A stretch of DNA of 38,409 bases from a bacterium BMS3Abin11 (GTDB taxonomy: Bacteria > Pseudomonadota > Gammaproteobacteria > BMS3Bbin11). The stretch is from assembly GCA_002897635.1 (NCBI GenBank), contig BDTD01000029.1:1-38409 (forward strand), read 5' to 3'. Below the pieces are notes generated by a model that was not told where the DNA came from, did not search any database, and saw nothing but the letters and a program-made list of their open reading frames with translations. Below, one piece after another: positions 3,255-32,997 of the stretch; position 1 is the first letter of the stretch, and every line of letters begins with the position of its first letter. The translations under genes and the position numbers were made by a program.

Positions 3255-3321
3255 TGTAGGTGCGAATTCATTCGCACAATTACTTTATCATCCTCTCTGT
3301 GCGAATGAATTCGCACCTACA
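3255..3321. repeat. BIME-like hairpin pair, copy 1
   Basis: Two 24-base arms (3255-3278 and 3298-3321) face each other across 19 bases. Each contains the near-palindromic core GTGCGAATGAATTCGCAC, or its complement, flanked by TGTAGG/CCTACA. Each arm can fold into its own 7-8 bp hairpin. The pair lies between the divergent epimerase and arsC genes. Confidence 0.88.
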
Positions 3322-4223: not shown

Positions 4224-4349
4224 AAGGGGAAAGATAAAAGACTTATCGTGGCAATATTGTAGGTCCGAATTCATTCGGACAAGGTCTGTGCGAATAAATT
4301 CGCACCTACAAATATTAACTAGATTTTTCTTTCCCCTTTCCTCTGCCTT
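4213..4349. repeat. Facing heptamer arms enclosing a BIME-like pair
   Basis: The left arm (about 4213-4240) reads as GGTAAAA, GGGGAAA, GATAAAA-type 7-base units. The right arm (about 4329-4349) is its pyrimidine-rich counterpart. Between them sits a complete BIME-like pair. The left arm contains the DUF2069 stop codon; the right arm ends within a few bases of the hda stop. Confidence 0.7.
4258..4310. repeat. BIME-like hairpin pair, copy 2 (mixed arms)
   Basis: The left arm (4258-4281) has the core GTCCGAATTCATTCGGAC; the right arm (4287-4310) has GTGCGAATAAATTCGCAC. The stem change C/G to G/C is compensated within each arm but not between the arms, so each arm is conserved as its own hairpin. 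Confidence 0.88.
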
Positions 4350-13160: not shown

Positions 13161-13211
13161 ACCGCATTTAAGCTTTTAGGCTGCCTCTCTACAGGCAGCC
13201 AGTGGCGGTTT
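13159..13211 (+). terminator. Stem-loop after the CsgG-family gene
   Basis: An inner stem GGCTGCC (13179-13185) pairs with GGCAGCC (13194-13200) around 8 bases, and an outer stem AAACCGC (13159-13165) pairs with GCGGTTT (13205-13211). There is no clear T run after it, so termination is likely but not proven. Confidence 0.5.
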
Positions 13212-13214
13212 GTA

Positions 13215-13879
13215 ATGATAATACAGAGCAGGAACAAGGGCGTTTATTCAAATGTCATAAATGCACCTGGATCAAAATTTATACAGGTTTTTCATGCCAT
13301 CAGGCCATACTGGCTGTTATTGCTGTTTACCAGTATAGCGGTCATTGGCCTGATTTTTTTAGCACATGGCAAAGGCTCAATCTCAGCCCGAAAGAATTAA
13401 ATCAAAATGGCTTTGAAGAAAAAGTGCTTAAAGTTATCCGGAAATATGATATTCCACCGGATCGTATTGAATTTGAGATTACAGAACGCCTGGTTATCAG
13501 CAATCTCGAAAATACCATTGAGAAAATGCTGAAAATGAAGCAACACGTCTTCCGTTTTTCAGTTGATGACTTTGGTACAGGATATTCTTCACTCGCCTAT
13601 CTGAAAGAGCTGCCTATAAATCGCCTTAAAATTGACCGTTCTTTCATCTGTGATGTTACTGAAGACCGCAACGATGCGACCATCGTCGAAACAATAATTT
13701 CCATGTCTCATCACCTTGGCCTTGAAGTCGTAGCAGAAGGCGTAGAAACTCAGGAACAGCATTTTTTCCTTAGCCAGCATGCCTGTGATATCTTCCAGGG
13801 ATATTATTTCAGCGAGGCCCTGATAGCATCAGAAATCACCATGTTTGACTTGCAGCACAACAAAGAAAATCTGCAGTAG
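13215..13879 (+). pseudogene. Collapsed membrane-anchored EAL-domain gene
   Basis: Remains of a cyclic-di-GMP phosphodiesterase-type protein. One frame (13215-13400) begins with ATG and codes about 60 residues including a membrane helix (YWLLLLFTSIAVIGLIFLA). It then stops. A second frame, open from before 13370 to 13879, codes the C-terminal half of an EAL domain: LNLSPKELNQ, EFEITERL, DDFGTGYSSLAYL, LKIDRSFI and EGVET. The EAL signature itself, the first half of that domain and any GGDEF or sensor part are missing. The two pieces meet at about 13370 in different frames, which fits an internal deletion with frameshift. The metal-binding Glu of the EAL motif is lost, so no activity is expected. 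Confidence 0.82.
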
Positions 13880-20955: not shown

Positions 20956-21034
20956 TGTGCGAATGAATTCGCACCTACAGATTCAAAACATCAATGAAAA
21001 AGAAAATGATTGTAGGTCCGAATTTATTCGGACA
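20956..21034. repeat. BIME-like hairpin pair, reversed arrangement
   Basis: One arm (20956-20979) has the core GTGCGAATGAATTCGCAC; the other (21011-21034) has GTCCGAATTTATTCGGAC. Here the CCTACA/TGTAGG ends face inward, the opposite of the other pairs. It fills the gap between the S9 peptidase stop and the GCS2-type ligase. Confidence 0.85.
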
Positions 21035-26169: not shown

Positions 26170-26375
26170 TAACCGCAGAGGACGCTGAAGTACGCAGAGG
26201 TTTTTTTTGAAAATAGCGGATTTCAAATGTAGGTGCGAATTCATTCGCACAAGACGGTTGAAAAGGAGTTTTTTTCACGATATTGTCCGAATGAATTCGG
26301 ACCTACAAACGGGGCATCCGATAGTAATTGAAAATACATAAAAACCTCTGCGTACTTCAGCGTCCTCTGCTGTTA
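26170..26375. repeat. Inverted repeat with 10-base period, enclosing a BIME
   Basis: Two 35-base arms, 26170-26204 and 26341-26375, are inverted copies with one mismatch. Inside each arm CGCAGAGGACGCTGAAGTAC shows a 10-base period. Between the arms lies a complete BIME-like pair (26228-26307). The structure fills the whole gap between two convergent genes, the SDR and DUF1015. Confidence 0.9.
26228..26307. repeat. BIME-like hairpin pair, nested and mixed
   Basis: The left arm (26228-26251) has the GTGC...GCAC core; the right arm (26284-26307) has the GTCC...GGAC core. Each is its own hairpin, and the pair sits in the loop of the 10-base-period inverted repeat. Confidence 0.88.
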
Positions 26376-26388
26376 AATAAAAACCTGA

Positions 26389-27621
26389 TCAATCCAGTAC
26401 ATAAGAAACCAGCCCATCTGCAAGTTTGGGCTCGAACCAGGTAGATTTGGGTGGCATAACTTTGCCTGCATCGGCAACTGCCATCAGTTCATCCAGGCCG
26501 GTAGGGTGAAGAGAAAAGGCCACTGCCATTTCACCACTGTTGACACGTTTCTCAAGCTCGCCCAGGCCGCGTATACCACCGACGAAATCAATGCGTATAT
26601 CACGCCTTGGATCGTTGATGTTGAGGATAGGGGCTATCAGATTGCTATCCAGCATTTGAACATCCAGTTTTTCTACTGAATCTACGGAGGTCGTCAGATC
26701 ATCATGTATCGACAGGCGATACCACTGCCCATCAAGGTACATGCCGTAGAGCCCTTTACTATCCGGCTTAACCGCTGCTGCAGCTTTTTCAATGTCGAAG
26801 CTTTCACCAACCTGTGACAGGAATTCTTCTTTCGATAAGCCATTCAGGTCTGCAATTACCCGGTTATAATCAATAATCTCCACCTGATCATCAGGAAACA
26901 GTACCGCCAGGAAATACTTGCAGGAGCGGTTTCCAGCAACATTATATTCATTCATCGCACAAACTCGGCTGGCCGCTGCAGAACGATGATGTCCATCAGC
27001 GATATACAAATAATTCAGGTGGCTGAATACCTCATCAAACTGTGCAAGCTGCTGGGCATCATCAACCACCCAGAAGCGGTGTCGCACACTATCATCGGAG
27101 GTTAAATCATAGACCGGTACCTCAGATTTTTTTTGTTCTACCAGTTGATCTACATCGTCTCGTTGCCGGTAGGTCAGAAATACCGGGCCGGTCTGTGCGT
27201 GCAATGCCCTGATCTGATTGACACGATCATCCTCTTTTACCGGCCGGGTAAATTCATGCTTCCGAATGATGTTTTTATCATAGGCTTCAATTGATGCAGC
27301 TGCCGCTATGCCGGTTTGCACATGTTCACCCATGGTCAGCTCGTAGATATAATAACAGGGCTTATCATCACGAATAAGAATCCCCTCATCAATCATATTC
27401 GCAAAGTTTTCCGCACCACGCTGGTAGACGGACTCATCATAGGGGTCTGTTCCTTGCGGCAGGTCTATCTCCGGTTTGGAAACATGCAAAAAGCTCCAGG
27501 GTTTATTTCTGGCAAGTTCACGTGCTTCAGCAGTATTGACGACATCATAGGGTGGCGCGACCACATCAGCCACCCTGCCGGCAACAGGCCGCAGGCCTCG
27601 AAATGGCGAAAGAAGCTTCAT
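26389..27621 (-). CDS. DUF1015 family protein
   Basis: A 410-residue soluble protein. The N-terminus (LSPFRGLRP...VVAPPYDVV), FLHVSKPEIDLP, RKHEFTRPVKEDDR, and the conserved motif YIADGHHRSAAA are those of DUF1015. The DGHHR motif is reminiscent of the ParB/sulfiredoxin-like nucleotide-binding fold, so a kinase-like or NTP-using activity has been considered for relatives; none is shown here. It is a single gene, convergent with the SDR and divergent from the small gene at 27779. Confidence 0.9.
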   Translation of the reverse strand: MKLLSPFRGLRPVAGRVADVVAPPYDVVNTAEARELARNKPWSFLHVSKPEIDLPQGTDPYDESVYQRGAENFANMIDEGILIRDDKPCYYIYELTMGEHVQTGIAAAASIEAYDKNIIRKHEFTRPVKEDDRVNQIRALHAQTGPVFLTYRQRDDVDQLVEQKKSEVPVYDLTSDDSVRHRFWVVDDAQQLAQFDEVFSHLNYLYIADGHHRSAAASRVCAMNEYNVAGNRSCKYFLAVLFPDDQVEIIDYNRVIADLNGLSKEEFLSQVGESFDIEKAAAAVKPDSKGLYGMYLDGQWYRLSIHDDLTTSVDSVEKLDVQMLDSNLIAPILNINDPRRDIRIDFVGGIRGLGELEKRVNSGEMAVAFSLHPTGLDELMAVADAGKVMPPKSTWFEPKLADGLVSYVLD

Positions 27622-27778: not shown

Positions 27779-28333
27779 ATGACAGAGCCGATTTCGAGAA
27801 CCGATCAGATTCGACAGTTTCACGCACAATTTATCAATGCCGTCGCTGAGGCCTGCATGAAACCGGACGAATATAATCAACTGGAGCCATTGCTGAAACA
27901 GGCAGAACAGGCCGGATGGAAAGACCTGGTTTCCGTTATTCGTAAAATCTATACCGGACAGAGAGAGACCGGCATGCTGGAAATACTGGATGAAGAAGAC
28001 CACGTGATTGCCAGTAGTATCCTGCAGGGGATACAAAACCCCGCCACCCTGCCCGATCTGGAACAGAAGCCGGATGGCTCAATGGCCGCACCCGGCCTGG
28101 CATCAATGATACAGGCGGCCGCCACTGGCAATGCTCCTGCCCTGTCTCTGCTAGGAAACATGGGAGAACAAATGTCAAAAGTGGGTGGGGAAATGTCCCG
28201 GATTTCGGGGATCTTCCACCGCCTGGTTAATGGTGAACGTGATCCAGATACATTAACAAAAGGCATGGCCAAGCAGGCGGAGGAGCTAACACTGTCTATT
28301 CTGGAAGAGCTGGGGAAACTTGAAAAGCATTGA
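27779..28333 (+). CDS. Hypothetical helical protein
   Basis: A 184-residue soluble protein that I do not recognise. It is preceded by GGAG at a normal distance and has a steady coding pattern. It is nearly all predicted helix: an N-terminal four-helix-like part (1-85), a linker with PATLPDLEQKPDGSMAAPG, and a C-terminal helical part with QMSKVGGEMSRISGIFHRLVNGERDP. No signal peptide or membrane segment is seen. It lies before the aguA/aguB chimera, separated by a BIME-like pair, so a shared function is not implied. Confidence 0.7.
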   Translation: MTEPISRTDQIRQFHAQFINAVAEACMKPDEYNQLEPLLKQAEQAGWKDLVSVIRKIYTGQRETGMLEILDEEDHVIASSILQGIQNPATLPDLEQKPDGSMAAPGLASMIQAAATGNAPALSLLGNMGEQMSKVGGEMSRISGIFHRLVNGERDPDTLTKGMAKQAEELTLSILEELGKLEKH

Positions 28334-28375: not shown

Positions 28376-28445
28376 TGTAGGTTCGAATTCATTCGGACAC
28401 AGAACTTCGATCATTCTCTCCTGTGCGAATGAATTCGCACCTACA
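28376..28445. repeat. BIME-like hairpin pair, mixed
   Basis: The left arm (28376-28399) has the core GTTCGAATTCATTCGGAC, in which one stem pair has become G-T; the right arm (28422-28445) has GTGCGAATGAATTCGCAC. It lies upstream of the aguA/aguB chimera. Confidence 0.87.
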
Positions 28446-28495: not shown

Positions 28496-29629
28496 TTGAA
28501 ACCATATAAATCGCGCCTACCCGCTGAATGGGAACACCAGAGCGGTATCCTTATCAGCTGGCCGACGAACTCTACAGACTGGTGCGATAATCTGGCAGAT
28601 GCTGAAGCCACCTATGTTGAGCTCACTAAATTAATTGCCCAGAATTGCCATGCATATATCTGCTGTGACAATTCAGATACCCGGCAGCATGTCCAGCAAT
28701 GCTGTAATAAGGCAGGCATACCCTCTGAACGGTTTGAGCTCTTTACCATTCCTTATGATGACACCTGGACAAGGGATTACGGACCGATAAGCCTGGTCAG
28801 GGAAAACGACGTAGTGTGGTTGAATTTTAAATTCAATGCCTGGGGCAATAAACACCCGCATCAACAGGACAATCTTCTCACTTCATTGCTACACCAGCAG
28901 TTCAGCCCAAAAAGAGTCCTTGAAACCATCAATTTCGTCCTTGAAGGCGGCAGTATAGAGTGCGATGGCGATAACACTGTCATAACGACCAGTCTTTGCC
29001 TGCTGGATCCGGCACGAAACTCAGGCCTGTACCACAACACTGCCATTGTTCTAGATAGTGACGGAAGTCTGGCGGACTGCTATCGCAAAATGCACATCCC
29101 TGATGACCCCGGTTATTATGAAAAATACTATTTTGCGCCCGGAGATACAGGATTCAAGCCGATTAGAACCAGTCTCGGCAACATTGGTGTTCTGCTGTGC
29201 TGGGATCAATGGTTTCCCGAAGCGGCACGATTAATGGCTCTCGCTGGTGCAGAGTTACTGGTCTACCCAACCGCTATAGGCTGGGATCCAGCCGATAATG
29301 AAACAGAGCAACAAAATCAGCTGGACAGCTGGATAACGGTTCAGAGTGGTCATGCCATCACTAATGGCATACCATTGCTGACAGCTAACCGACATGGGCT
29401 TGAAATTGATCCATCCGGTAATACTAAAGGAATCAACTTCTGGGGAAACAGCTTTATCTGCGGTCCACAGGGTGAAATACTGTCACAGGCCGGTGCCAGC
29501 AAAGACTGTCTACTACAGACTGAAATTAACTTAAACTACTGTGAAAGAATTAGACAGACCTGGCCATTTCTGCGCGACCGACGAACTGATGCCTATGCAG
29601 GACTTAGCCAACAATTTCTTGATGATTAA
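28496..29629 (+). pseudogene. In-frame chimera of agmatine deiminase and N-carbamoylputrescine amidase
   Basis: The 377-residue frame joins two half-enzymes of the agmatine-to-putrescine pathway. Residues 1 to about 172 match the N-terminal half of agmatine deiminase (AguA): LPAEWEHQSGILISWP, PYDDTWTRDYGPI and FVLEGGSIECDG. Residues about 176-377 match the C-terminal part of N-carbamoylputrescine amidase (AguB): YRKMHIPDDPGYYEKYYFAPGDTGF with the catalytic Lys (198), GVLLCWDQWFPEAARLMAL with the catalytic Cys (225), then YPTAIGWDP. AguA lacks its C-terminal catalytic His and Cys; AguB lacks its first 80 or so residues with the catalytic Glu. The join (about 29006-29030) is in frame and both halves are otherwise clean. 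A deletion across adjacent aguA and aguB explains it; activity is not expected. The start is a weak TTG without a clear ribosome site. Confidence 0.85.
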
Positions 29630-29641
29630 CTGGAGAATAAA

Positions 29642-29986
29642 ATGACTGATTGCCTGTTCTGTAAAATGGTAAATGGCGAGATCAAGCCCGATGCTGTCTA
29701 TGAAGATGATGACATACTGGCATTTAATGACATTAACCCCAGGGCCCCAACACATATCCTTATCATTCCAAAAAAACATATCGCCACTCTTAATGATGTG
29801 GAAGAATCTGATACATATTTGTTGGGAAAACTTAGCAGTATCGCTGCGGAACTGGCCAGTAATACGGGTTTTGCCAGGGATGGTTATCGGCTGGTGATGA
29901 ACTGTAACGCTGCAGGGGGTCAGGCAGTCTACCACATACATCTCCACTTACTTGCTGGCAGGCAAATGAGCTGGCCTCCTGGGTAA
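29642..29986 (+). CDS. hinT: HIT-family purine nucleoside phosphoramidase (HinT-like)
   Basis: A 114-residue histidine-triad protein. The triad HIHLHLLAG places His at 98, 100 and 102, and the N-terminus CLFCKMVNGEIKPDAVYEDDDILAFNDINPRAPTHILIIPK is typical of HinT. The family hydrolyses adenosine phosphoramidates and aminoacyl adenylates. GGAG precedes the start. It begins 13 bases after the chimera, so it may be read in the same transcript. Confidence 0.93.
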   Translation: MTDCLFCKMVNGEIKPDAVYEDDDILAFNDINPRAPTHILIIPKKHIATLNDVEESDTYLLGKLSSIAAELASNTGFARDGYRLVMNCNAAGGQAVYHIHLHLLAGRQMSWPPG

Positions 29987-30553: not shown

Positions 30554-30606
30554 TGTAGGTGCGAATTCATTCGCACAAATATTGTCCGAATGAATTCGGA
30601 CCTACA
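30554..30606. repeat. BIME-like hairpin pair, mixed, tight spacing
   Basis: The left arm (30554-30577) has GTGC...GCAC and the right arm (30583-30606) GTCC...GGAC, only five bases apart. It separates the convergent TerB and SH3-like genes. Confidence 0.88.
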
Positions 30607-32973: not shown

Positions 32974-32997
32974 TGTAGGTTCGAATTCATTCGGACA
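32974..32997. repeat. Single BIME-like arm
   Basis: A lone arm with the core GTTCGAATTCATTCGGAC, as at 28376, with no partner in the gap between the synthetase and ettA. Confidence 0.82.

Follow-up and report, generated by a model that had tools for sequence, protein, structure and literature searches.

An in-frame aguA–aguB fusion as a probable deletion pseudogene in a gammaproteobacterium with broken polyamine genes

Domain content of the fused reading frame

The window analyzed here is a 38,409-nucleotide stretch from the gammaproteobacterium BMS3Abin11 (GenBank assembly GCA_002897635.1, contig BDTD01000029.1, positions 1 to 38,409). Within it lies a single reading frame that begins at a TTG codon, runs for 377 codons without a stop, and leads in frame from about 176 N-terminal residues of agmatine deiminase (AguA) into about 200 C-terminal residues of N-carbamoylputrescine amidase (AguB) (Table 1).

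Table 1. Features at the fused locus, in window coordinates
Feature	Position	Strand	Basis
DUF1015 gene, marking the left side of the conserved order	26389..27621	-	
Conserved 184-aa orf directly upstream of the fused ORF, intact	27779..28333	+	
REP-like palindromic element between the 184-aa orf and the fused frame	28376..28445	+	
Fused ORF aguA'-'aguB, 377 aa, probable pseudogene	28496..29629	+	ORF list; Pfam and NCBIfam half-matches
AguA-derived part, N-terminal half; TRDYGP and EGGS kept, later His/Asp and Cys segments missing	28496..29021	+	
Deletion junction CAGGCCTGT	29022..29030	+	Comparison with G003 and congener genes
AguB-derived part, C-terminal two thirds; Lys and Cys kept, Glu segment missing	29031..29629	+	
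Intact HIT-family gene, marking the right side of the conserved order	29642..29986	+	Pfam; comparison with G003

Residues 7–179 of the fused frame match positions 1–160 of the 321-position PAD_porph profile in Pfam (E = 2.6e-43), and residues 175–354 match positions 87–256 of the 256-position CN_hydrolase profile (E = 1.7e-37). The NCBIfam AguA model is covered from position 9 to 179 of 357 with 97.6 bits (cut-off 381.8). An intact congener AguA covers positions 9–355, yet scores 230 bits and itself falls under the cut-off, so that coverage rather than the cut-off is informative for this half. The NCBIfam AguB model is covered from position 91 to 277 of 279 with 226 bits, and an intact congener AguB covers positions 6–277 with 291 bits (cut-off 410). 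The fused frame contains neither the full-length pentein domain of an agmatine deiminase nor the full-length nitrilase fold of an AguB.

Compared with AguA (TIGR03380; structures 3hvm, 2jer, and 1vkp), residues 7–180 correspond to the N-terminal half, including the TRDYGP and EGGS motifs, but the C-terminal half that bears the catalytic His/Asp segment (WLDHGHIEGDDTDTHID) and Cys segment (GSLHC) is absent. Both HGHIEGDDTDTHID and GSLHC are found in AguA of the nearest relative, G003, and are matched in relatives in the PDB. Compared with AguB (TIGR03381; structures 6mg6 and 5h8i), residues 176–368 correspond to positions 91–277 and retain the Lys (YRKMHIP) and Cys (LLCWDQW) motifs, but the first ~90 residues, which bear the catalytic Glu (VLPELH), are deleted, leaving the Glu-Lys-Cys triad incomplete. 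The catalytic roles of the AguA His/Asp and Cys and of the AguB Glu are established for the two families. The original prediction, made from the DNA letters, had described an in-frame fusion joined at about residues 171–178 and lacking the AguA His and Cys and the AguB Glu; the profile matches bear this out, and the junction falls at residues 176–178 (about 29021–29030). Because each half is short of catalytic residues and of much of its fold, neither agmatine nor N-carbamoylputrescine should be a substrate of the product, judging from what is known of both families.

The junction and the arrangement in relatives

Relatives were compared as one genome per species, and the fusion junction is known from one genome. 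Five congeners (G001, G003, G004, G005, and G006) and a member of the same family (G007) carry intact, adjacent aguA and aguB genes at the same place. Where the stretch is complete, the conserved order is DUF1015 gene, 184-aa orf, aguA, aguB, HIT gene, and TerB-like orf, and the neighbors of the fused frame are intact and collinear with G003. No second reading frame holding both an AguA and an AguB half was found among about 110 aguA/aguB loci, and no AguA–AguB fusion was encountered in a literature search. Four loci with both halves within ~1.2 kb (L109, L112, L113, and L116) were considered as further fusions and proved to be aguB-aguA operons in reversed order.

The fused halves are 79–80% (AguA) and 82–84% (AguB) identical to their G003 counterparts, and the stretch missing relative to G003 is one gap of 938 bp that takes in the 3′ portion of aguA together with the spacer and the 5′ portion of aguB. 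The original prediction had put the loss between adjacent genes at roughly 0.8–0.9 kb. In G003, the sequence CCTGT occurs in both aguA and aguB, in copies 938 bp apart that lie at the two ends of the gap. The junction in the window reads AACTCAGGCCTGTACC, and its G003 counterparts are AACTCGAACCTGTCG in aguA and GCAGCTGGCCTGTACC in aguB. In the remaining congeners, aguA encodes RNPG(L/W) at this point (for example, CCAGGACTGTCA in G004) and aguB encodes AAGLYHN (for example, GCAGGCCTGTAC in G006). These congener sequences suggest that both genes probably had CAGGxCTGT as the ancestral repeat, set in one and the same codon phase. In the extant relatives, the repeat reads -Gly-Leu- in an identical phase in aguA and aguB, which is why the join is in frame: a deletion between in-phase copies necessarily joins the frames, and selection is not needed to explain the outcome. 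The locus thus combines an intact ancestral arrangement in relatives with a short direct repeat at both gap ends, as a pseudogene formed by deletion between repeats would.

The window also harbors a REP/MITE-like palindromic family (TGTAGGTGCGAATTCATTCG...CGAATGAATTCGCACCTACA), with 13 arms against 0 expected. Its elements lie at 3255–3321, 4258–4310, 20960–21030, 26228–26307, 28376–28445, 30554–30606, and 32974–32993; one copy sits directly upstream of the fused frame and another at the expected place of speD. Relatives have few such arms: 39 kb of the nearest one contain 1, and 12 kb of another contain 2. Elsewhere in the window, positions 13202–13879 hold the remnant of a GGDEF/EAL-type signaling gene in which the EAL end alone is open, a probable pseudogene; the G003 counterpart encodes 1109 aa, and about 2.7 kb of the gene is lost here. 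A 353-aa gene that forms one frame in this genome is split in two in G003 (L145 9996–11079, G003:C34).

Polyamine synthesis and uptake genes in the genome

The assembly is rated 99.92% complete. A genome-wide search for the lost C-terminal part of AguA and N-terminal part of AguB did not find them, the best match (18 bits) being another nitrilase-family gene; the intact second copies that would have spoken against the original prediction are thus not present in the assembly. The genome search that it had proposed likewise found no intact aguA, aguB, speB, or speC-type gene, and a frameshifted speA. The latter carries one extra base (a +1 frameshift) near codon 54, with a stop shortly downstream; its remaining frame of 520 codons restarts at a GTG past the lysine motif YPIKVNQ, and complete speA in congeners encodes 625–638 aa. 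Of speE, just the two ends are left after a 532-bp deletion, which is not a multiple of three and hence out of frame, bounded by 13-bp repeats that are identical at 12 of 13 positions (TGGCAGATGCTGG and TGGCAGAAGCTGG). In all six congeners speE is intact and adjoins speA. The speD gene, present in five congeners, was found neither genome-wide nor where synteny would put it, flanked by a cytochrome gene on one side and, on the other, by a conserved orf that adjoins argS.

No speB or other agmatinase/arginase-family gene was found in the genome, and within the genus only G003 has one. Nor did the families searched yield an OKR_DC_1 decarboxylase or another arginine, ornithine, or lysine decarboxylase, the sole other PF02784 gene being lysA (diaminopimelate decarboxylase). 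All route genes tested are broken or lost in this genome, and the congeners retain the polyamine gene set, speB excepted. Among ~60 genes matched to G003 in two stretches, five are broken, including all four polyamine genes located there; the chance of this is about 1e-5, a post hoc figure drawn from those two stretches.

Turning to uptake, a PotABCD-type importer was not found in the genome, and none of the seven genomes has a PotA above the family cut-off. An SBP_bac_8 protein, of the family that we take to include PotD, was also not found in this genome. The PotA-like genes of three congeners were considered as a polyamine importer lost here and set aside, all being under the family cut-off; that of G003 adjoins genes resembling an iron or phosphonate importer. 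The single APC permease of the genome was similarly rejected as a putrescine carrier, as it is GadC-like and lies beside glutamate decarboxylase. The glutamate decarboxylase and adjoining GadC-like antiporter (L173 26–2829, G000:C25) may form an acid-resistance or GABA pair.

Origin of the fused frame and comparison with known systems

The fused frame is very probably a pseudogene produced by a repeat-mediated deletion of ~0.94 kb across aguA and aguB, within the loss of the whole polyamine route. A deletion of about this size between short direct repeats would have joined the neighboring genes in one frame; the in-frame outcome would follow from the repeat phase, which is seen in extant relatives, the ancestral repeat being a reconstruction. 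The route from arginine through agmatine, N-carbamoylputrescine, and putrescine to spermidine appears to have been lost in this lineage, given that speA and speE carry lesions of their own and speD is missing. With the pathway gone as a whole, a pseudogene is the most likely status of the fused frame. The bacterium would then live without these polyamines or import them through an unrecognized importer.

Two observations run counter to a pseudogene: the frame is open over all 377 codons, as it would be in a functional fusion, and dN/dS is still well below 1. Three-taxon, branch-specific dN/dS estimates were unstable, with control genes raised too, and we therefore used pairwise values. These are slightly raised, at 0.28 and 0.23 for the fused halves, against a neighbor median of about 0.2, and 0.17 and 0.11 between G003 and G006. 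A recent deletion would leave values well below 1. The pairwise values fit recent loss and point to no constraint other than the inherited one, and they are not decisive.

The original prediction had held that, if the fusion were real, the strain must make putrescine another way or the protein must have a new role, and that it was otherwise an assembly error. A pseudogene in a lost pathway, the case best supported here, was not among its options. An assembly or amplification artefact, in which 0.94 kb was skipped between two intact genes, would account for the exact junction occurring in this genome only. However, assembly k-mers are far longer than the 5 to about 9 bp that the two genes share, and repeats in the 5–13 bp range should not be collapsed by an assembler. 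Moreover, the lost halves appear nowhere in the assembly, and the same pathway is hit by lesions of different kinds. The shortness of the repeats and this variety of lesions make an assembly error unlikely.

That the deletion is real but the pathway survives, with putrescine made by an ornithine decarboxylase, an agmatinase, or a second aguAB pair, is very unlikely. Redundancy does exist in the genus, as G003 has a second AguB-like gene (G003:C62:3110–3769), a partial second AguA-like gene (G003:C53:2–385), and an arginase-family gene, but none of these was found in this genome, and such a route would not explain the loss of speE and speD. Least probable is a functional novel protein, one able to fold and serving in a new role or as a bifunctional enzyme: the open frame, the four intact motifs, and the low dN/dS would suit it, but the AguA domain is reduced to half, the nitrilase fold lacks its first third, catalytic residues of both enzymes are gone, no homologous fusion was seen, and the partner genes are broken as well. 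We give equally little weight to a chance fusion that is expressed and retained for some new purpose other than catalysis, in a bacterium no longer making polyamines.

Taken together, a deletion pseudogene remains the preferred reading, and the most likely course is recent abandonment of the pathway by ordinary decay rather than the birth of a new enzyme. What modest interest the case has comes from the lineage, not from the fusion. Although an accident, the fusion flags a gammaproteobacterial lineage without the speA, aguA, aguB, speD, and speE route, apparently lost by separate lesions. As close relatives keep the route, the lineage offers a natural test of bacterial life without putrescine and spermidine. 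It also exemplifies a way in which an in-frame “fusion of pathway partners” could arise without selection, through short repeats in one codon phase.

Pseudogenization of polyamine synthesis is already known; what is new is the form of the lesion and the number of route genes hit. In Francisella tularensis, speA is cut by premature stop codons in clades A.II and B, and aguA is broken by ISFtu1 in type B (PMC9251427), so that the SpeA–AguA–AguB route is likewise lost by pseudogenization. In Francisella, the route was lost through stop codons and an IS element, and speE is retained (PMC9251427), whereas the lineage described here combines an aguA–aguB deletion fusion with a speA frameshift, a speE deletion, and loss of speD.
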